Positions 42,636 to 56,685 of a DNA stretch of 64,000 nt are shown piece by piece. The stretch spans positions 186,001 to 250,000 of the forward strand of contig NZ_CP111037.1 in assembly GCF_026248685.1 (NCBI RefSeq), written 5' to 3'. How positions within the stretch are numbered: position 1 is the stretch's first letter; each line of letters opens with the position of its first letter. The notes beneath the pieces are model-generated. The model made no database searches and was not told where the DNA came from. It saw only the letters and a list, made by a program, of their open reading frames with translations. The DNA is from Haladaptatus caseinilyticus. GTDB taxonomy: Archaea; Halobacteriota; Halobacteria; Halobacteriales; Haladaptataceae. Both the position numbers and the translations under genes were made by a program.

Positions 42636-43211
42636 ATGGTCGATGTTAGTGGACATTTCGCGATGGCATTATTGTTCGCCACGCCGGCGTGGATTATCTG
42701 GGGGGGACGCGGTGCGTTGGCGTTTACGGCATTCACACTGGTAACCGCGATGCTCCCGGACGTCGATCTGGTTCTCCGACATTTCGTCCCGGTCTCACAT
42801 CATGGAGTGACCCACACACTGCTATTTGTCGTGGTTGTGAGTAGCATCATCGGGGCGATCTCGGCACGATACCTCACCAGTTATCTCAATGCTCATAGTC
42901 GGATTCGAAGCACTAGGATAAGCCGCGAAACGGTCTTCGTCTTCGCAACGGCCGGTTTTATCATCGGTGGTGTCAGTCACATTTTTGCGGACTTGCTTTC
43001 TGCCCCCGACATCGCAGCACCGCTCGCACCGTTTTGGCCGATCTACCGTCAACACATCGTAATCGACGTGATCTACTATGATTCGCCGATCTGGAACTTT
43101 GGATTGCTCGGTGTGGCGGTTGCGCTCCACTATCTTCTCGCCCGGCACAAGCGATATCCACTCCACACACGCTACCGAATTGGTGACCCAAAAAAAGGGA
43201 ACAAATCGTGA
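42636..43211 (+). CDS. DUF457-type membrane-bound metal-dependent hydrolase
   Basis: From ATG 42636 the protein has 191 residues. It contains 'MLPDVDLVLRHFVPVSHHGV' with the His/Asp metal-binding pattern, a later 'GGVSHIFADLLSAPD', and four or more helices. This is the YdjM/DUF457 layout. Position and composition are ordinary. Its substrate is unknown. Confidence 0.85.
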   Translation: MVDVSGHFAMALLFATPAWIIWGGRGALAFTAFTLVTAMLPDVDLVLRHFVPVSHHGVTHTLLFVVVVSSIIGAISARYLTSYLNAHSRIRSTRISRETVFVFATAGFIIGGVSHIFADLLSAPDIAAPLAPFWPIYRQHIVIDVIYYDSPIWNFGLLGVAVALHYLLARHKRYPLHTRYRIGDPKKGNKS

Positions 43212-43446
43212 GTGTTCAGGAACTGATCGTAGGATAGATCGTCCATGTGCTCACAGCAGTATACGTCATATGATAACTAATCAAACACCCCGTGAGATTG
43301 TTTGTCTACCCGGGAGTGCCTTTGGTCGTCGTTTGTTCCAAGTCGAGATCCTCCGCTAATCGAATCCCCTCCGTTTCCGTTATTGGCCTTCCCATCGTTT
43401 TCCATCTTCGTGTATCCGAAAAGCACAAAACGAAATCGATCGACAA

Positions 43447-44130
43447 CTACTCATCTTCCGTCTCGCCATCGATCAAGGGGCCCATCGATCGTTCGATGAT
43501 TTTCTTGTTCGCTCGTCGAAGCCGTTCGGATGCCGCTTGGTGGCTGATTCCAAGAAGCCGACTGATATCCTTTTGTGAAGCCTTTCGAGGAATTTCGTAA
43601 TAGCCTTGATTGTAAGCGGTCCGAATCGCTTCTAACTGCTCAGGGGTAAGACCGAGTCGAAACACATCGGGAGGATAGACGTCCCGTAATTTGTCGAGAG
43701 CGAACTGTATCTCGTGGTTTTGGCAGTAATTATCGAATCGAGAGAGATCCGCTTGCGTGCCGAATCGGAGACGAAGCGTCCAGATACCGTGCTCACCGAA
43801 TCCTTCGATGATCGTTCCCTTTGTCTGGCGTACACCGTCAAGCAGACTCGTACCCGATGGCTGCCACTGAAGACGGTAGAGTCGTTTTTCTTCAACGATG
43901 GTCAATAGCTCGAACTCCGCGATATCGTCACTACTGGCAAACGCTTCTTCTATACCTTCCGGGTCCGGCGTCGTCTGTGTACCTGCCACCCACACAAACG
44001 GGAGGAACTCATCTTCACGTCCGGTCGGAACGATGCGGTCAAATTCGATACGCAACGCGGACATCGTCTGAAAAACTTGCCCGAAAGCAAATTCATCAGC
44101 ATCGATACGAATATCGATTTCGATGGACAT
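43447..44130 (-). CDS. HTH_10 (Bat-like) transcription regulator
   Basis: From ATG 44130 the protein has 227 residues. A Bat-type sensor domain occupies the first 155 residues, followed by HTH_10: 'LTPEQLEAIRTAYNQGYYEI' and 'DISRLLGISHQAASERLRRA'. The upstream DNA has a TATA-like TATTTATAATTTATC near 44207-44221. No neighbouring gene clearly belongs to its regulon. Confidence 0.88.
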   Translation of the reverse strand: MSIEIDIRIDADEFAFGQVFQTMSALRIEFDRIVPTGREDEFLPFVWVAGTQTTPDPEGIEEAFASSDDIAEFELLTIVEEKRLYRLQWQPSGTSLLDGVRQTKGTIIEGFGEHGIWTLRLRFGTQADLSRFDNYCQNHEIQFALDKLRDVYPPDVFRLGLTPEQLEAIRTAYNQGYYEIPRKASQKDISRLLGISHQAASERLRRANKKIIERSMGPLIDGETEDE

Positions 44131-44335
44131 GAAGGGTGGTACGACCTCCGACCCACTGACCTTTTCGTCTCTGAAAGTCCGAGACGTGTCGCGTCGAATC
44201 TTTGATATCGATAAATTATAAATAGTTGCCGGCTCGGAGCCCCCAGCCACATATTTGGAAAGGAGTGTTACGCTACAGCGATATACGAATCACCCTGCCA
44301 CAACTCCTATTGGACAGTTCCTACAATTATCCGAC

Positions 44336-44470
44336 ATGGTACGACCCTCGACGTTGGTACTTCTCATTGGAATCGTCCTGTTGTTTGTTCCGATTCCTCC
44401 AATAGCGACGATTCTCGGTCTTATCGTGATCGTTATCGGTGTTGCACTCCGGCTGCTCACCGATCGATAG
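44336..44470 (+). CDS. 44-residue two-helix membrane protein
   Basis: From ATG 44336 the protein starts 'MVRPSTLVLLIGIVLLFVPI' and has a second hydrophobic segment 'TILGLIVIVIGVALRLL'. A Pro-Pro turn separates them. Small proteins of this kind are common in haloarchaea. The upstream extension to 44255 is less hydrophobic and not needed. Confidence 0.6.
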   Translation: MVRPSTLVLLIGIVLLFVPIPPIATILGLIVIVIGVALRLLTDR

Positions 44471-44662
44471 CCGAAAATACGGTATCAAGGTTTCTCATAC
44501 TCCGCCACTAGTACGAACTTCGAAACGCTCGTCAGCACCGGTACCTCTGACGAAATGGACAATGTCTTCGAACCGCTTCCTCAATCATCACGACTAGTGG
44601 TAGTTCGTTGGCACGAACCGGTGCCCGTAAAAACGTTGCATCCGAGCCGACTCCGGGGGAGG

Positions 44663-45841
44663 TCATCGGCCGCCGTCGGTGGCTTCACCGCCCGTCGCCG
44701 TGTCGTCGAAACTATCGTCCGTTTCTTGTGTCGTCGTGGGCCCGATATCGAATCCGGTCGTCGGCTCCTCGCCGCGAAGTCGGGGGACGACGACCTGAAG
44801 GAACTGGACGACGATGACCATGACCAGCGGCCCGAGAAAGATACCGTACCAACCGAACAGAATCGGTCCGAGCAGATAGGCGAACATGACGAGCGAGAGA
44901 TGGAACATTTTTCCCGAGAGATACGGGCGAATGTAGGTTCTAACGACGTTATCGAACGCGAGTGTCATGAACAGGAAGAACACGATGGGATACCAGAGGG
45001 CGGTCGGATCCCGTTGAATCGCCTGCACTGCGAGGACGGCAGCGATCGCGAGATAGACGACTGATCGGCCGACCAATGGAACTAATGTAAAGATACCCGT
45101 GATGACTGCCAGCAATATTGCCACAGGGATCAACAGGTTTCCTGGCGCGAAGAAATTGAAGACGTTGTAAATAACGGCGGTCAATATCATGATGACGAAG
45201 ATGGTGAGCGTGTAGCCAAAGTAAATCGAGTTGAGTCCTTCATCGACTGCCACGAGAAAATCGATCGATAGCGGATCGTTTCCGAGGATCTGTTCCTTGC
45301 TCCACCGAGCGAGGCGTTCGTCGTTGACCAAGAGGAAGAACCCTAACAAAACCGACAAGAACATCATGAACACGCTGGATGCGGCGGCACCGAGGAAAGC
45401 TTGTGCGCCAGTGAGTGCGGATTGCACTGAAGGGTCTTTGAGCGTAGTAGTCGCCGTGTCGAGCAACTGATTCGGATCGTTTGGGACCGTCCCAACGTTG
45501 ATCGGTAGCTGTTGTAGGAGTTGCGTCGCTGCGTTCGAGGTCGCAAATGCGGCTAATTGAGCGATCGCAATCGATAGGAAGACACCCAGGAAAAGGATGA
45601 TCGGCACGACGATGAGCAACAAAGAAATCGCGGCCGAAAGGTTTTCTCTCTTGACTCGAGTGCCGAGACGTCGGTTTATCGGCCGTGCGACGTAATAGAT
45701 GAACACCCCGAACACGACCCACGGAAGGAACGCAAATACGACTGCGGCGATAATCCCAAACACGATCAGACCGGCGATCCACCATTTCAAATTCGGTCGC
45801 ACGACACGAATTCGCGTCGCTTCTGACCTCTTCCCACCCAT
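44663..45841 (-). CDS. AI-2E family transporter
   Basis: From ATG 45841 the protein has 392 residues with seven to eight membrane helices and the family pieces 'VVFGVFIYYVARPINRRLGT', 'LGFFLLVNDERLARWSKEQI' and 'GPILFGWYGIFLGPLVMVIV'. An acidic Thr/Asp/Glu-rich tail of about 40 residues follows. Members include AI-2 exporters and Na+/H+ antiporters; the substrate here is unknown. Confidence 0.9.
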   Translation of the reverse strand: MGGKRSEATRIRVVRPNLKWWIAGLIVFGIIAAVVFAFLPWVVFGVFIYYVARPINRRLGTRVKRENLSAAISLLLIVVPIILFLGVFLSIAIAQLAAFATSNAATQLLQQLPINVGTVPNDPNQLLDTATTTLKDPSVQSALTGAQAFLGAAASSVFMMFLSVLLGFFLLVNDERLARWSKEQILGNDPLSIDFLVAVDEGLNSIYFGYTLTIFVIMILTAVIYNVFNFFAPGNLLIPVAILLAVITGIFTLVPLVGRSVVYLAIAAVLAVQAIQRDPTALWYPIVFFLFMTLAFDNVVRTYIRPYLSGKMFHLSLVMFAYLLGPILFGWYGIFLGPLVMVIVVQFLQVVVPRLRGEEPTTGFDIGPTTTQETDDSFDDTATGGEATDGGR

Positions 45842-46122
45842 GGCCATATGGTACCATAGGCCATCGGTGAGGTTAGCTTTGCCGACGGATGAGATGACGG
45901 GTGACAAAATGAGATGTTCCATCTTCACGACATCTTGAGCGATTATTTGTGAAACCACTCGTAAATTACTGCATTAACCCCGTCGACAGCGATTTTTCTC
46001 TATATTTATAAGGTCGAGGAGATAAGAATGGACCACTCGCTGGTGATGGAGGGTCTCGTGCTTTCCCGAGGGCATAGGACGACATAGGAACTCATAGACA
46101 CAAAGAATCCCGTTGAATGATT

Positions 46123-46470
46123 CTATTTTTCTCGTAGCCGTGTTTCGAGAGCGTCCAACACTTCCCAGAGAACTCCAACGACTGAAGTCGCGTGAAGGGT
46201 GAACTCGTCATAGACGCAGTTTTCGTCCGATGACTCCCGTTCTAGAAAATGGAAATGACCGCGAATATGCGGATTTGGTTCGAGATGCCATCCGCAATCG
46301 AATCCCGAGGACTCGCTGTAATGAAAGGCGAAGTTGGATGTTAGCGACGTACGTTCGCGGTCTTCGAGCCCAATCTCTGGTGGAAATGTAGGATTCGGTT
46401 GCCATGTCATTCGAAATGTCGCTTTGTCAGCGTTGCGTCCAAAATACCGAGGATCAACCTGTGCTTGCAC
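46123..46470 (-). CDS. Orphan His/Trp-rich protein, possibly N-terminally truncated
   Basis: The 115-residue frame from GTG 46470 has the pattern 'FAFHYSESSGFDCGWHLEPN' then PHIRGHFHF, and ends 'LLWEVLDALETRL'-like (GVLWEVLDALETRL). The same order (HY, GWH, PH or EH, HFH, LWE) occurs in proteins at 49295 and 54714. The open frame continues upstream without a start to a TGA at 46567-46569 (S-S-A-A-R-Q-L-D-R-H-P-A-I), so the 5' end may be lost by a frameshift; a frame starting near 46694 could be the original beginning. No HTH partner gene is adjacent. Confidence 0.6.
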   Translation of the reverse strand: MQAQVDPRYFGRNADKATFRMTWQPNPTFPPEIGLEDRERTSLTSNFAFHYSESSGFDCGWHLEPNPHIRGHFHFLERESSDENCVYDEFTLHATSVVGVLWEVLDALETRLREK

Positions 46471-46733
46471 TTCAGCATAGTACCCATCTGGAATGCCATG
46501 TGCGTTCGTGATCGCCGGATGTCGATCGAGTTGTCTCGCAGCGCTCGAAGGATGCGGTGAAGTTTCTCAGCTGCCTCATCCGGGTTGTGTGATCCACCAT
46601 CCGGTCGAAGACGTACCAATGATTCACTCACTGCTATACCTCGGTCTGATCGATAGTGAGTCGGCAGAACCGACCATTCAGACGAATCTGTCATGGCGAG
46701 GCGGATGGGTGAGCAGTGTAGCAGTGAGTACAA

Positions 46734-47071
46734 ATGCCTGAAACCACAGCAGTGAATATCGGCAGCCTACCTTCCTTGATATCGTGTCTGGATCGGTCGT
46801 ATTCGAGCGTTGAGTATTGGTTGAGATAGTTACTTGCACCCCATGGAGAATCCATTGGCAAGCAGGTTCGTGGTTCCGGGAATCTTACTCAGTAGATGAT
46901 TTCCGCGGTGTACCCGGCAACATCCTCGATATCATCCCCCGAACAATTGCTCTATCAAAGTGCAAAAATCCATCTATCGGAGTGGTTCGGATCAGCCTTC
47001 GGCAAAAAGGTCATATTTGTACGTATTATAATCAATATATCTTTTTCCACTTTTAGGTGGTTATTCATCAT
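46734..47071. other. A/T-rich spacer with no recognised gene
   Basis: No coding frame with haloarchaeal composition, no RNA gene and no repeat was seen. Several A/T-rich stretches near 47030-47055 could be a promoter for the following PPOX remnant. Confidence 0.45.
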
Positions 47072-47780
47072 ATGGGGGATATCACAACCATCCAGATGGA
47101 CGAGGAAGAACGAAACGAGCTTCTCATGACTGGAGGAACTGGCGTAATTTCGTTCTCGGCTGGCACCGAAGATTCACCGTACACACTACCGGTATCGTAC
47201 GGATATGACACGACTTCCACTCGCTTTCGGCCCAGACAGCAAGAAAGAAGAGTTGATCGATCGTCCTATCACGTTCGTCACGTATGACAAGACGGTAGAA
47301 GGGTGGTGTAACGTCGGCGTTACAGGACGACTGAAAGGAGTGGCGGAAGCTGACATCGACTCGAACATCGTGCAAGGAATACAGCACGTCGACGATTTCG
47401 AGGATCTCTTCGAATTTCCTTGTTTAGCGGCGATGGACGAACGCCTTCAGGAGAAAAAACCAGTTCGGAAAGACCTGTTTAATCTGGTGCGGATGGCATG
47501 GTGGCTACCCCAGTATCGAGACGCTAGCGCGGGAGAGTTTATCAAAGATATGAAAGACCTGTTCTCTCGGTGGCCCTGGTATGATGAAGAGACAACGGAG
47601 TACCAAATTCGATACGAACTTGCGAACAATATTGGCGGTGAGATCCTCCTCCCAATGAATTGTTCGAACGATGATATGAAGCGCTATTGCATCGGACGCG
47701 ACCAGTGTCCATACTCGATCTATGGCAGTCTTCCGTTCCCTAACGATATGTACGAGCAACTCGATAGTCGGTCAGAGTAG
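47072..47780 (+). pseudogene. Chimeric remnant: PPOX start, primase large-subunit-like end
   Basis: The first part, from ATG 47072, reads like a PPOX flavin oxidoreductase: 'MDEEERNELLMTGGTGVISF' and 'YTLPVSYGYD'. A frame change near 47215 follows; the next frame continues LAFGPDSKKEELIDRPITFV to 'VQGIQHVD'. Then the sequence changes character: 'EFPCLAAMDERL', 'PWYDEETTEYQIRYEL', MNCSNDDMKRYCIGRDQCPY. Four Cys at about residues 73, 153, 162 and 168 of the second frame resemble the 4Fe-4S C-terminal domain of archaeal primase large subunit (PriL). The two halves probably joined by deletion. It is unlikely to be functional as PPOX. Confidence 0.55.
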
Positions 47781-48725
47781 CCATCGTGATGACCTCCCGT
47801 TGGGGGTTGCTTTCCACTGTTGTATCATATTTGTTACCTACTGTTCGACTTCTTTCTTGGAGTGCTTGTACTACCGATTTTGCAAATACGAATGAGCTAT
47901 TCTGTGCAACGGATTCAGGCGTCTGAGCCGTTTTCCGACCTCTATTTTCACATAGCAAATCCAACTTTATTCATATAGCATGAGTAACAAGAATAGACAA
48001 TTCAACTTCAAACGCGAAATTCAAGGGCGAGAAGGCCCAAAACAGTGCATATATCTCTGAAAGAAGCCAAAATCAGTTGCATATAACAAATAACGGATTG
48101 AGAGAAGCCCTAAGTTATTATATGCAAACCTAACGCCGCCATATTGCTTTGCGTACCTCCAAAACCGTCCAAAGTAATAGGGGGGTACGAAGAACAAACG
48201 AGACTAGCGCGACCGGGGGAAAACAAGCGGAACAAGCAATCAGGGAAAACTGCCGAATTATCAGCAATCTAGAAGAGGTGATCCGAGCAATCTGGACGCT
48301 GAAAACGGAGTGGCATGCGATAGTGCAGAAGAAAGATGGGCAATCAAACGGCAGATGGTACTGATATGATAGTGACCACTGGATTTCCTCAATCAAGTTT
48401 TCAGGGTTTAGATGATTTGAGACGAGTGCGTGTATTGACTGCTGGACGATCAACGGATGCTACGATGGAGTGAATCGAGTGGAACCTCGTCTCGTGAGCA
48501 GCATGAAATTGCGATCTCTTTCCGTCGTCTATCAAAGTAAGCACCATAGATAGAATGCAAATAGTACGTCTCGAGAGGGAAGAAATACTGGGTCGTGAAT
48601 GAGGATTGAATGGCATGCGAAGTGACCGATCTATCACTATTGAGAGTTACTGTTCGGGTCCATCTGTGATATACCCATGAAGAATTGCTCTCTCGACCAA
48701 ACCGGAAATGATTCCTCGAAGTAAG
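47781..48725. other. Long A/T-rich spacer, no certain gene
   Basis: About 950 bases without a convincing gene. A minus-strand frame near 48130-48270 encodes a hydrophobic stretch (FPPVALVSFVLRTPLLLW) that could be a small membrane-protein remnant, but it has no supported start. Composition suggests degraded or transferred DNA. Confidence 0.4.
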
Positions 48726-48735
48726 AACTATATCC
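48726..48735 (+). promoter_or_regulatory. TATA box of the first HTH/partner module
   Basis: AACTATATCC is centred about 25 nt before ATG 48756, as expected for a leaderless transcript of the two-gene module. Confidence 0.45.
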
Positions 48736-48755
48736 TGCCAGCTCTAACACGTAAT

Positions 48756-49292
48756 ATGGCTAATTCAGATCCCACCGACGGGCCACCCCCCTTCGAGGAC
48801 GCATTCAGCGGCGACGACGTCGAACAACAAATCTATGGGACTGTCCTCCGGACGCGCGAGCCAGTAACGGCGAGTGCAATCGCAGATCAAATCAATTGTG
48901 ATCCGAAAACTGCTCGGAAATACCTCAACTGGTTTGCGGATCTCGGGATCGTCACCCAACACGACGGGCATCCAGCCACCTACAAGCGCAATAACGCCTA
49001 TTTCGAGTGGCGACGCATCAATCAGCTCGCGGCACGTCATTCACTTGAAGAACTCCAGCAGCGCGTGCGTACGTTGACGACAAAGATCAATAGTTACGAA
49101 GACGAGTATGACGCTGCGATCCCGGCAGACGTTGATGCACTAGCCGTTGTCGAGACAACCGTTGATCGATCGATCGATGACGTGTACAGTGATCTCGCCG
49201 ACTGGATGACTGCTCGCGAAGAGAGAACACGCTATGAACGAGCACGCCAGCAACGCGCGGGTACCGCCGACCACGAACAAGCTTCTGGATAG
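48756..49292 (+). CDS. DUF7342-like HTH/coiled-coil protein, module copy 1
   Basis: The protein has 178 residues from ATG 48756. An acidic N-terminus (1-25) precedes a winged helix at about 28-85 (PVTASAIADQINCDPKTARK, then YLNWFADLGIV). A helical, coiled-coil-like region follows ('SLEELQQRVRTLTTKINSYE'), and a charged tail. The partner gene begins 2 nt after the stop. The HTH protein probably binds its own promoter and the partner protein. The family name DUF7342 is from memory; the domain order is seen directly. Confidence 0.75.
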   Translation: MANSDPTDGPPPFEDAFSGDDVEQQIYGTVLRTREPVTASAIADQINCDPKTARKYLNWFADLGIVTQHDGHPATYKRNNAYFEWRRINQLAARHSLEELQQRVRTLTTKINSYEDEYDAAIPADVDALAVVETTVDRSIDDVYSDLADWMTAREERTRYERARQQRAGTADHEQASG

Positions 49293-49294
49293 CA

Positions 49295-49729
49295 ATGGTA
49301 CCGCCAACTGGTGATGGGGGCAGTCCTGCACCCATCGACCACCCAATCCTTGAGTTTCTACAGACCAGGCTCAGCGCCACACAGCAAGTCGAACAGGCAG
49401 TCATCACTGATGCCAACGAACATCTTGAGCTTCGCGTTACATTCGCCGAGCCATATTATCCGACGTGGGTAGATGAGGCGACGCTCGCTGTCCGGTGGTA
49501 CACGAACGGCGACTTCAAAATTCACTATCGAGAAGTACACGCCGATAGCGCCTGGGAGTGTCGCTGGGATCGCCATCGGAACCCGCACAATACTGGAGAT
49601 CATTTCCATCCACCACCCACTGCTCCGACGCTTGGTGAGGATGCCACATGGCCAATTGATCATCGTGATATCCTGACGCTCGTCCTTGACGAGATTGAAC
49701 AGCGGATCACGACGCTGTGGGACGAATAG
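49295..49729 (+). CDS. His/Trp-rich partner protein, module copy 1
   Basis: The 144-residue protein has an N-terminal helix (HPILEFLQTRLSATQQVEQA), then strands with 'LAVRWYTNGDFKIHYREVHA', 'WECRWDRHRNPHNTGDHFHP', and a final helix 'DILTLVLDEIEQRITTLWDE'. The core W...HY...W.x.H...PH...HFH recurs at 46123 and 54714. The distance to the HTH gene is 2 nt, as in toxin-antitoxin operons. The His-rich GDHFH motif is reminiscent of TumE-type (DUF6516) toxins, but overall similarity is weak. No enzyme activity can be stated. Confidence 0.7.
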   Translation: MVPPTGDGGSPAPIDHPILEFLQTRLSATQQVEQAVITDANEHLELRVTFAEPYYPTWVDEATLAVRWYTNGDFKIHYREVHADSAWECRWDRHRNPHNTGDHFHPPPTAPTLGEDATWPIDHRDILTLVLDEIEQRITTLWDE

Positions 49730-50033: not shown

Positions 50034-50131
50034 TAATTTCTATTGCACATCACCACATAGATTGGCAAGGTGGGTTTGTCACACGGGCCTTCAAATTTCT
50101 GTCTTCATGAAGAAACAGAAAGGGTTTGACA

Positions 50132-51360
50132 GTGTTCCGAGAATCGAGTACACAGACTGTGAATGACCGACCAACCACAGAGGGTTCTCAACGCGAGACA
50201 CTAGGCCTGCTCATCGGTTTTTTCTTGCTTTCGACAGCGGCCGCAGCCTATGAGATCGCCCCGGCAAGCGTCTTGCCGGTGATTCAAGAATCACTCGAAC
50301 TCAAGGCGAGTACTGCAGGATGGCTTGTCAGCATTATGTATGCGACTGCGGTCGTCACCAGCGTCCCCGCTGGCATCGCTATCGACCGCTTCTCGGTGCG
50401 TCGGATGATCGTCTTCGGCACCGTCGCACTCGTCGTCGCGGGTGTCTGGGGCTGGTATGCGGCCACGGCCAGCGCGTTTCTCTGGCTGCTCGTTTCGCGC
50501 GTCCTCGGCGGTATCGCGTATGTCATCTTCTGGAACGCAGGTGCGAACGTTGTCGGAAGCGCCGTCGCACCTCGCCATCGGGCAACCGTAGTCGGCGTGT
50601 TTACCGCGAGCGCACCCGTCGGATTCGCGCTCGGCCAGTTCGGCAGTCCCCTCATCGCAACCGTTGCTGGGTGGCCAGCGATCCTCCCGCTGTATGCCGC
50701 CATGGGTGTCGTCGGTGTCACTATTTTCTTGCTCGCGACCCGCCACCACGTTCCTGGCGTTGACGCATCGGCACCGGATCGCACGGCGCTGCGCGGAATG
50801 TTCACTAATCAGGGGGTCTGGATGATCTGTGTGCTCTGTTTCCTTGCCTACTCGCTGTATCTCTTCGTCAACACATGGTTACCGAGCTATCTAGTCGACG
50901 GATTCGACATCTCGCTAGCGGCAAGCGGCCTGCTGACAGCGCTGTTCCCGGCGATTGGAGCAATTGGACGGTCAAGCAGTGGTGTCGTCTCTGATCGGAT
51001 GTTTAGCGGGAAACGTCGCCCCGTTGTAGCGTCGTCGTTCGTCGTCGCACACCCGCCGTCGTCGCCTTCGCGTTTGTCTCGCAGCTCGGGCTCGTCGGCG
51101 GGGCGGTGGTCGTCGTCGGCTTCGCTATCCAACTCGTTACTGGACTGCTCTTTTCGTACATCGCCGAACTCGTCCCGCCGGCGGTGCAGACTACGGCTGT
51201 TTCGTTGCTGACGAGTGTTGGCTTGTTAGGCGCGTTTGCTGCACCGATCGCCGGCGGAATCATTATCGACCGTGCAGGCTACAGCCCGGCGTTTTTCGTC
51301 GCCGGTGGGGTCGCCCTCGTCGGTGGGATCTTAGCTCTGCGGGCACCTGAACCCACCTAA
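50132..51360 (+). pseudogene. Major facilitator superfamily transporter with a frameshift
   Basis: The first frame (GTG 50132, or TTG 50126) encodes ten helices of an MFS transporter with 'GIAIDRFSVRRMIVFGTVAL' (motif A) and ends near 51050 in non-membrane residues. The next frame resumes with LVGGAVVVVGFAIQLVTG, 'LLFSYIAELVPPAVQTTAVS' and the last helices to TAA 51360. The break is around 51040-51055, in a CG-rich stretch. Restored length is about 410 residues, normal for MFS. A single lesion could be a read error; otherwise the gene is inactive. Confidence 0.75.
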
Positions 51361-51694: not shown

Positions 51695-52150
51695 GTGAGC
51701 ATTAGCTCATCAGAAACGATTATCGGGTGGCGTGAGAAAGCCAAGCGTGTGACTGACGACGTCGAGTATCCTTCCGTCGAGTTGATTCTCACCCTCCATG
51801 AACAAATCGTTGAGGAGGGCGACACTACGGAACCAGATGTTCAGTCAGAGGACTCGATTAAATCCGCATTGCAGTACGTTTCGGAGGGATTCTTCGGCGA
51901 AGTACCAGAAACACTCCACGAAAATGCGGTGCATCTGATGCGACTGCTCGTTGCAGACCATCCGTTTGTCGACGGGAACAAACGAACTGCACTCCGAACG
52001 GTGGTCATCTTCTACATGCTGAATGGATATACATTCAAGTATGGCGACGAAATTCGCGCATTACTCCATCGCTTCGCGATTGACGAAGCCACAGTCGACA
52101 TCGATACCGTAGTCATCTACTTCCGTGCCTGCGCTCGTCGCAACTGCTAA
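51695..52150 (+). CDS. Death-on-curing (Doc/Fic) family toxin
   Basis: The 151-residue protein (GTG start) has the Fic active-site motif HPFVDGNKR at 89-97, in the Doc form with Lys. The N-terminal part 'YPSVELILTLHEQIVEEGD' matches Doc-type proteins. Such proteins modify translation factors by phosphorylation (Doc) or AMPylation. A small acidic protein follows at 52181 and may be the antitoxin. Confidence 0.88.
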   Translation: MSISSSETIIGWREKAKRVTDDVEYPSVELILTLHEQIVEEGDTTEPDVQSEDSIKSALQYVSEGFFGEVPETLHENAVHLMRLLVADHPFVDGNKRTALRTVVIFYMLNGYTFKYGDEIRALLHRFAIDEATVDIDTVVIYFRACARRNC

Positions 52151-54713: not shown

Positions 54714-55157
54714 ATGTCCGTCCCACATCCAGGCGGAAATCCGAATGCACAGTTATACGAGCAGCTGAAACGAGATGTCCTCGAACGCGTTCCCCACATC
54801 ACAACGATCGAGTACGTTCCGGACGACGTGGAAGCCACACAGCTGCGGGCAACCTTCGATCCGAGCCGCATCAATCCACCCACTGGTCCAGAGGCACCCG
54901 AACTCGTCATCAAGTGGTATCGCCAAACACCGCATGATTGGTTTCGTATCAACTATAGCGACCCGAACACAGATTTCCATGCTGGGTGGCACCAGGACGA
55001 GGATCACGAAGACCTCGGACGAGAGCATTTCCAGTACTCGATTGACGAGGAAACGATGCACCAGCCAGTGACGTTTCAACACGAGACCCCATCGCTCATC
55101 CTCTGGGAAATTATTGAGAATCTTCTGGAGGAAATCCTTCCGACCTACCACCGCTAG
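54714..55157 (+). CDS. His/Trp-rich partner protein, module copy 2
   Basis: The 147-residue protein has an N-terminal helix, then 'LVIKWYRQTPHDWFRINYSD', 'DFHAGWHQDEDHEDLGREHF' and the end 'PSLILWEIIENLLEEILPTY'. Conserved points with 46123 and 49295 are the WY, the aromatic-Tyr pair before GWH, an acidic or polar loop, an HF or HFH, and the LWE-type helix. It has no known fold that I can name. It lies next to a Fic gene. Confidence 0.7.
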   Translation: MSVPHPGGNPNAQLYEQLKRDVLERVPHITTIEYVPDDVEATQLRATFDPSRINPPTGPEAPELVIKWYRQTPHDWFRINYSDPNTDFHAGWHQDEDHEDLGREHFQYSIDEETMHQPVTFQHETPSLILWEIIENLLEEILPTYHR

Positions 55158-55539: not shown

Positions 55540-56685
55540 ATGCCCACGAGAGAGCTTCCTGATAATGCACCGGGAACGTACGTCCCGTATCACCCGAATC
55601 CGTACTATTCTCCAGAAGCGCTCCCAGTAGAGCCGAAGCTCGAGATTTCTGATCAAACACGTGACCTCGTGGCCGATGCCGCGTATCAGATCGGCCGTGT
55701 CGACGGGATTAGCTCAACAGTCGACTTTTCCGCCGTTCTCTACACGTCTCTCATTCGTATCGAAGCTGTCGAATCTGCACGTATCGAAGGCGCAGACGTC
55801 GAGTATCAGGATCTCGAAGCGTATCACACACAGCACCCCACAGGAGAGACAGATCCAACAATTGAGAAAGATCTGAAAGAGGCACTCAACTACGAAAATG
55901 CACTCAACTACGGGCTCGACAGAATAGCGAACGGGGATTCGATAACGCTCTCACTCATTAAAGAACTCCGCTCGATGCTCCTTGAAAACGTCCGGAAAGA
56001 CGGTGACGTCATCGGCGACTTCCGTGACCACATGGTTCATCTCGCAAGTTCGCGGTCTGGACAACGTCCGTTCGTTCCCCCAACCCCAGAAGGCCTCAAT
56101 GGACTCATGCAGTCGCTCGAGTCATACATCCAGATGGGTGGACAGTACCATCCGCTCATCGACGCTGGCATTATCCACTATTTCTTCGAGACAGTACATC
56201 CCTTTTCAGACGGAAACGGTCGGCTCGGACGCCTTCTCATCATTCTCTACCTGACGAGTGAGGGCTATCTCGAAAGTCCGTACATTTACCCGAGTGCGTA
56301 TTTCAATCGCCACAAAGTCGAGTACATCGAGCGAATGCGTGCAGTGAGCGAGGAGGGTGCGTGGGACGAGTGGCTTACGTTCTTCATTGAAGGGCTTCGG
56401 AGTCAAGCCGAGACATCGTACACCCGGACACAACAACTCCGAGAACTCCAAGAGCGGTACGAGAACGAGTACTCGGGGAGTACAACCACGGACGCATTCG
56501 CTCGTCAGTTGCTCCAACATCCATATTTCACTGCGCCAGACCTGGTGGAGTATCTCGATGTTTCACGTCGAACCGCCTACAAGATCGTCGACAATCTCGA
56601 AGCAGATGGCCTCATCGAGGAAGTGACTGGAAAGGAACGCGGAAAAGAGTACAAAGTAGTCGATGTGTTCGACATCCTCGAGTGA
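55540..56685 (+). CDS. Fic-family protein with self-inhibitory helix and winged helix
   Basis: The 381-residue protein has an N-terminal Fic_N-type region with the inhibitory motif SARIEG (79-84; S/T-x3-E-G/N), the Fic core with active site HPFSDGNGR (220-228), and a C-terminal winged helix (about 315-381, 'YFTAPDLVEYLDVSRRTAYK'). It likely AMPylates a protein target and may bind DNA. The inhibitory motif in the same chain is the class II arrangement. A T-tract terminator-like sequence follows 32 nt downstream. Confidence 0.93.
   Translation: MPTRELPDNAPGTYVPYHPNPYYSPEALPVEPKLEISDQTRDLVADAAYQIGRVDGISSTVDFSAVLYTSLIRIEAVESARIEGADVEYQDLEAYHTQHPTGETDPTIEKDLKEALNYENALNYGLDRIANGDSITLSLIKELRSMLLENVRKDGDVIGDFRDHMVHLASSRSGQRPFVPPTPEGLNGLMQSLESYIQMGGQYHPLIDAGIIHYFFETVHPFSDGNGRLGRLLIILYLTSEGYLESPYIYPSAYFNRHKVEYIERMRAVSEEGAWDEWLTFFIEGLRSQAETSYTRTQQLRELQERYENEYSGSTTTDAFARQLLQHPYFTAPDLVEYLDVSRRTAYKIVDNLEADGLIEEVTGKERGKEYKVVDVFDILE

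Follow-up and report, generated by a model that had tools for sequence, protein, structure and literature searches.

TumE-TumA, published in Nature in 2023, is a toxin-antitoxin superfamily (DUF6516, PF20126) in which, according to that paper, the toxin is mostly encoded by the downstream gene (PMC10584680). The paper gives TumE a fold in which a pair of helices packs against an antiparallel sheet of seven strands, for which the PDB offered no confident match; the toxin is said to inhibit translation, with an RNase activity that is proposed but unproven (PMC10584680). The system studied here, a DUF7342 winged-helix gene followed by a gene whose product we call the partner, resembles TumE-TumA as described there in being a two-gene unit with a DNA-binding protein and, putatively, a toxin encoded downstream (PMC10584680). 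It differs in that the neighbour of the partner belongs to the DUF7342 family, and in that the toxicity of the partner is a prediction. DUF7342 is named in no paper of the open-access literature that we searched, and DUF6516 in one.

The starting point was a broken copy of the partner gene in the haloarchaeon Haladaptatus caseinilyticus, on the minus strand of the window (the whole stretch of 64,000 nucleotides that was analysed). We consider it likely that this copy is what is left of a DUF7342-partner pair after recent decay, and as such a pseudogene of a TumE-like toxin-antitoxin module.

The intact module

Two intact copies of the module lie in the window, one for each of two partner classes:

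48708-49292, plus strand: intact DUF7342 winged-helix gene, an in-window relative of the gene lost at the broken copy
49295-49729, plus strand: intact partner gene of the RWDRH-type class, with an AlphaFold2 model of helix, seven strands, helix
54141-54710, plus strand: intact DUF7342 gene
54714-55157, plus strand: intact partner gene of the GWH-type class, to which the broken copy belongs

Directly upstream of intact copies, the neighbouring helix-turn-helix (HTH) genes of the window and of the rest of the genome exceed the Pfam cut-off of DUF7342 (PF24033); at the broken copy, in contrast, this gene is gone except for its last ten codons. The genome has 12 DUF7342 matches over the cut-off, none of them (0/12) on the 2.65 Mb contig, and a partner or partner fragment lies directly downstream of 11 of the 12, the exception (L020) being a partial match with no downstream partner. 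The first-pass annotation had counted the broken copy as the third member of its family, a count that proved too low: the same genome has 11 further partner genes or fragments adjoining DUF7342 genes. In the records examined, genes of the module are annotated as 'ArsR family transcriptional regulator', 'TrmB' or 'helix-turn-helix', together with 'hypothetical protein'.

Pairing was counted in 17 related genomes searched with both profiles, 13 of which have partner matches. DUF7342 lies upstream on the same strand of 66 of the 71 partner matches, and directly upstream of 58 of the 59 that are full-length (at least 116 profile columns) and without a stop. For the remaining shorter or interrupted matches the figure is 8/12, in a class that includes matches running past a natural stop (such as G000:C7:235027, whose 139-residue ORF is open) and so does not give the number of genes that are truly broken. 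Beside the sole long, unpaired and intact-looking partner (L164), DUF7342 was not found within the 3.5 kb read. Seen from the other gene, 64 of 70 full-length DUF7342 matches are paired; the six others comprise one with a divergent intact partner (L170), two with damaged partners found by profile (L168 and L172), one with a partner remnant recognised by eye only (L169), one that is itself split (L167) and one with no partner (L171). Solitary partners (1/59) are thus rarer than solitary full-length DUF7342 genes (6/70) by a small difference. Among 45 loci (L054-L098), 30 of them picked by score and the set therefore not a random sample, 44 have a partner ORF and DUF7342 is upstream of 43 of these; the exception, L094, lies at a contig edge. 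The contig of L094 is labelled Candidatus Nealsonbacteria and carries two copies of the otherwise haloarchaeal partner, perhaps as a misassigned bin. Several of the sequences compared are cut to match ranges and do not begin at true starts.

A sample of 292 genomes from the class, the genome of the window included, yielded a partner match in 260 (E up to 1e-5, with at most 13 candidates scored per genome), and 116 plasmid records hold at least one relative of the 49295 partner. The copies are not confined to secondary replicons; a genome of one contig (G010) has six partner matches on that contig. A viral home was considered and set aside: by short peptide patterns, viral contigs yielded one relative for the GWH class and none for the RWDRH class. 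A separate scan of viral contigs, for a TumE that could be modelled, returned none.

Similarity of the partner to TumE

No useful match to the partner was obtained from Pfam or NCBIfam, and none from PADLOC or PHROGs beyond one at E 0.08. We turned to TumE (PF20126) because its aromatic and histidine residues seem to be arranged much as in the partner. PF20126 itself recognised none of five partner sequences at E up to 10 in Pfam, the open stretch of the broken copy among them, and because of this the partner is not filed under that family; a PF20126 search of the same genome pointed to two other places, one of them over the cut-off. At the TumE locus of this genome (L027) the TumE gene precedes the HTH gene, the reverse of the DUF7342-partner order.

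Profile comparisons reached further. In a first hhalign run, a profile of 60 partner sequences (some genes being represented twice) against one of 29 haloarchaeal TumE gave 9.6% with a score of 23.3, against at most 15.5 for 60 decoys. After the TumE set had been enlarged by 27 sequences from other genomes of the phylum, the wider profile gave 86.7% (P 4.4e-06, score 40.9, 108 columns), while 100 shuffled-column decoys scored at most 18.3. Against the wider profile the RWDRH class alone reached 67.0% and the GWH class, that of the broken copy, 6.5%; DUF7342 against TumE gave 0.1%. A HMMER profile of the partner, run on 1,159 ORFs of which 57 were TumE, retrieved five family members and then 48 TumE, ahead of any ORF belonging to neither group (the first at E 2.4), and of its 71 further matches beyond the family 54 were TumE and 17 were not. 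In the reverse search, the haloarchaeal TumE profile reached the partners weakly (best E 0.0079 among 60). On these comparisons, in which the motif region of aromatic and histidine residues is aligned, we claim a remote, profile-level homology of the partner to known TumE proteins, and a similar mode of action is likely.

The predicted structures are consistent with this. AlphaFold2 models of the DYF46 homologue (GWH class; mean pLDDT 83.7, low at residues 1-21) and of the protein encoded at 49295-49729 in the window (RWDRH class; mean pLDDT 84.4) both consist of a helix, seven strands and a helix, with two further short helices in DYF46. The likeness to the published TumE fold is one of secondary-structure content, drawn from two models (PMC10584680). 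Solved structures searched by sequence at E up to 10 gave no match to the partner, and Foldseek with the DYF46 model found no relative in the PDB or BFVD at E up to 0.001. The best VIA-align hits of the same model (a CCAN chain at Z 7.0, then CapZ, Atg10 and ubiquitin-conjugating enzymes) were not retained, as by the tool's own caution they may reflect a common arrangement only.

A conserved two-gene unit with a DNA-binding protein, by which TumE-TumA is recognised, is also found in this module (58/59 and 43/44 in the two sets of loci). Such a unit could in principle have nothing to do with toxicity: DUF7342 might be a repressor of the usual kind, with the partner serving as co-regulator or as an accessory protein that binds a ligand or a metal, in which case the window copy would be a dead one of that kind. 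The annotations as regulator and 'hypothetical protein' fit such a role, the conserved histidines could bind metal, and we found no toxicity data. The remote similarity to TumE over 108 columns, the many divergent copies per genome and the near absence of unpaired full-length partners all argue the other way, and we regard this explanation as unlikely, though it deserves to be kept in mind.

The broken copy and its surroundings

The broken copy comprises the following features:

46123-46694, minus strand: broken partner gene, a probable pseudogene of TumE-like type, recognised from its two frames and from homologue alignments
46694-46533, minus strand: N-terminal part of the partner; the remainder, 46533-46123, is in another frame
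46520-46545, minus strand: frameshift region, where the window is a single base shorter than three homologues that stay in frame
46691-46720, minus strand: remnant of the DUF7342 winged-helix gene, the last ten codons including the stop, overlapping the partner start as in intact operons
46721-46722: junction, where homology to intact DUF7342-partner operons ends (46721) and the VIT1/PNPOx region of H. pallidirubidus begins (46722)
46722-46936, minus strand: surviving 5' part of a VIT1/CCC1 transporter gene, joined to what remains of DUF7342

Read on the minus strand, 46694-46123 is a single gene in two frames that meet near 46533. The frame opened by the ATG at 46694 carries NPDEAAEKLHRILRALR, and the second carries RQLDRHPAI, HYSESSGF, GWHLEPNPH, HFHF and LWEVLDALE before a TAG at 46123. 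The last four of these motifs had been assigned to this strand and frame in the first-pass annotation, together with a TGA at 46569-46567 and an overlapping frame from the ATG at 46694, and all are present as described. Its proposal that one inserted or deleted base would join the frames also holds on homologue alignment, the window being one base short. Three homologues cover the stretch in a single frame, namely a paralogue in the same genome, one in H. halobius PSR5 and one in Haladaptatus DYF46, so that the frameshift is real when measured against the family. The paralogue, a 193-residue ORF on the minus strand of contig G000:C3 (L005 10848-11429), has the whole stretch in one frame and matches the window DNA with 82% identity over 604 columns and a single one-base gap (E 6e-173), its protein match in the own-genome search being at 80% identity. 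Residues 1-53 of the DYF46 protein align to 46694-46533 and residues 54-187 to 46533-46132 in a different frame. With a frame change at about 46533, the window copy lacks the unbroken frame from start to stop expected of a functional gene.

The broken copy had been judged closest to the partner at 54714. This is so between the two other members in the window (BLASTP E 6e-07, 27% over 132 columns for the 54714 partner; E 2e-05, 38% over 52 columns for the 49295 partner), but closer copies exist elsewhere in the genome, at 80% (query residues 3-114) and 51% (residues 44-113).

Upstream, the end of the DUF7342 (PF24033) gene overlaps the partner start by four bases in all three in-frame homologues, and in H. 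halobius PSR5 and Haladaptatus DYF46 that gene is intact. The four-base overlap is kept in the window, where the remnant reads YTAHPSASP and a stop (46720-46691), which is too short to be scored by Pfam. Alignment to the homologues thus establishes both lesions, the frameshift and the reduction of DUF7342 to its last ten codons. The broken partner had been called an orphan without an HTH neighbour; no intact HTH gene is indeed present, but the ten codons persist, and judged from the sequence 'orphan' is its present state and not its original design.

Beyond the remnant, starting at 46722, the window aligns with VIT1 and pyridoxamine-oxidase genes carried by a plasmid of H. pallidirubidus. A match to a primase-associated gene, at its 3' end, begins at about 47361-47385. 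The junction at 46721/46722 is sharp, and the sequences on either side of it each occur elsewhere in another setting. Since several gene pieces are joined in this way, the stretch is a mosaic of gene fragments, with most of the HTH gene missing at one join; this join may have come from a deletion or from recombination between replicons. Among the pieces are a remnant of the pyridoxamine 5'-phosphate oxidase family in two frames and truncated at its 3' end (47072-47393), and a 3' fragment of a primase-associated protein (47361-47750, residues 360-488 of 488), the full gene for which sits in H. pallidirubidus between a DNA primase and a DUF7342-type pair. A weak similarity to the C-terminal part of the partner family at 47820-47906 (42% over 31 residues, E 0.01) may be a remnant or chance. 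Farther along the window, a transporter gene assigned by eye to an MFS-like family (50126-51360) is apparently split into ORFs 50126-51211 and 51106-51360, likely by another frameshift, and two Fic-domain genes (51695-52150 and 55540-56685) lie near DUF7342 modules. A related AI-2E transporter gene is also found downstream of the module in DYF46; synteny with this gene was dropped as evidence, since in H. halobius and H. salinisoli the most similar AI-2E genes have no annotated module next to them. As to another assembly of the region, no plasmid record covered 80% of 43000-49400 in the collection searched, which may omit records of the same genome.

Age and recurrence of the decay

After the lesion, the window copy and its paralogue differ by dN 0.107 and dS 0.554, and the three intact copies differ pairwise by dN 0.112-0.127 and dS 0.766-1.358. 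The dN of the window copy is 0.114 to PSR5 and 0.148 to DYF46, as compared with 0.112 and 0.114 for the intact paralogue. These values point to purifying selection on the protein for most of its history and to a recent decay of the window copy, the amino-acid divergence of which is near that among the intact copies.

Decay has occurred elsewhere in the same subfamily. Plasmid copies in YSMS36 and QDMS2 are like the window copy in having a broken partner frame and an unannotated partner. They differ in their lesions, an in-frame stop and a later one-base deletion at other positions, and because these are common to both they represent one further event or lineage. The DUF7342 gene, lost in the window, is still open in QDMS2; in YSMS36 it is matched in its C-terminal part only, plus a 17-residue piece. 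A third plasmid copy, in DYSN1, is in two pieces. Two further loci show disturbed modules of other kinds: at L085 4187-4679 in H. halobius, a further module is decaying, its DUF7342 gene divided between two ORFs and a fragment of the partner coming after them (G002:C4:413785-413904), and at L087 5747-6292 a 181-residue ORF has the HTH part of DUF7342 and the partner core in one frame, like a fusion by internal deletion.

A single one-base difference, in a frame of which the rest is still marked by purifying selection, might be thought an error of sequencing or assembly, so that the locus would encode an intact partner without an antitoxin gene. We consider this improbable, given that DUF7342 is truncated regardless, that a mere 1 of the 59 full-length, stop-free partner matches is without a DUF7342 neighbour, and that the surroundings contain other truncated genes. 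Programmed frameshifting, for which the exact meeting of the two frames might be invoked, is rejected as extremely improbable on the strength of the three single-frame homologues and of two other broken copies with lesions elsewhere. Hardly more credible is a short protein from the GTG at 46470 as a real product, despite an open frame of 115 codons: no intact homologue with its start read begins there, which the first-pass annotation had named as what would refute its reading. All of them begin farther upstream, by about 30 to 75 residues, in a portion that includes the N-terminal helix and the first of the predicted strands, and the short form would be without these.

Discussion

How the pseudogene arose can be sketched as follows. 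A rearrangement joined the DUF7342 remnant to the VIT1 fragment at 46721/46722, and one frameshift near 46533 broke the partner. In the intact copies, most likely a type II toxin-antitoxin system, DUF7342 would be both the antitoxin and the repressor of the operon, binding operator DNA and the partner, and the free partner would block translation as a remote toxin of TumE type, perhaps by RNase activity that depends on conserved aromatic and histidine residues, among them Y125, W135 and H148 of the DYF46 protein. That the antitoxin gene was lost could have been tolerable if the toxin frame was broken before this loss or with it, or if another DUF7342 protein covers for the lost one. Encoding neither protein whole, since both the antitoxin gene and the toxin frame are damaged, the window copy should therefore be inert.

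The module has a two-gene layout, is closely paired, is present in many copies and decays. On balance, we lean towards seeing DUF7342 and its partner as a toxin-antitoxin family found across the haloarchaea, a branch of TumE that has diverged deeply and uses a distinct type of antitoxin. A genome would carry as many as a dozen or so copies of it, frequently on plasmids or other secondary replicons, and these would have decayed repeatedly, with the window copy as one dead example. The toxicity of the partner would follow from its likeness to TumE.

The broken copy itself is a case of ordinary gene decay. Its follow-up suggests functions that can be put to the test, both for DUF7342 and for a protein of haloarchaea annotated as hypothetical, a partner matched in 260 of the 292 genomes sampled and usefully recognised by none of four family libraries. 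If the intact pairs are toxin-antitoxin systems, such systems would be very common in haloarchaea, with a bearing on the upkeep of their large plasmids.
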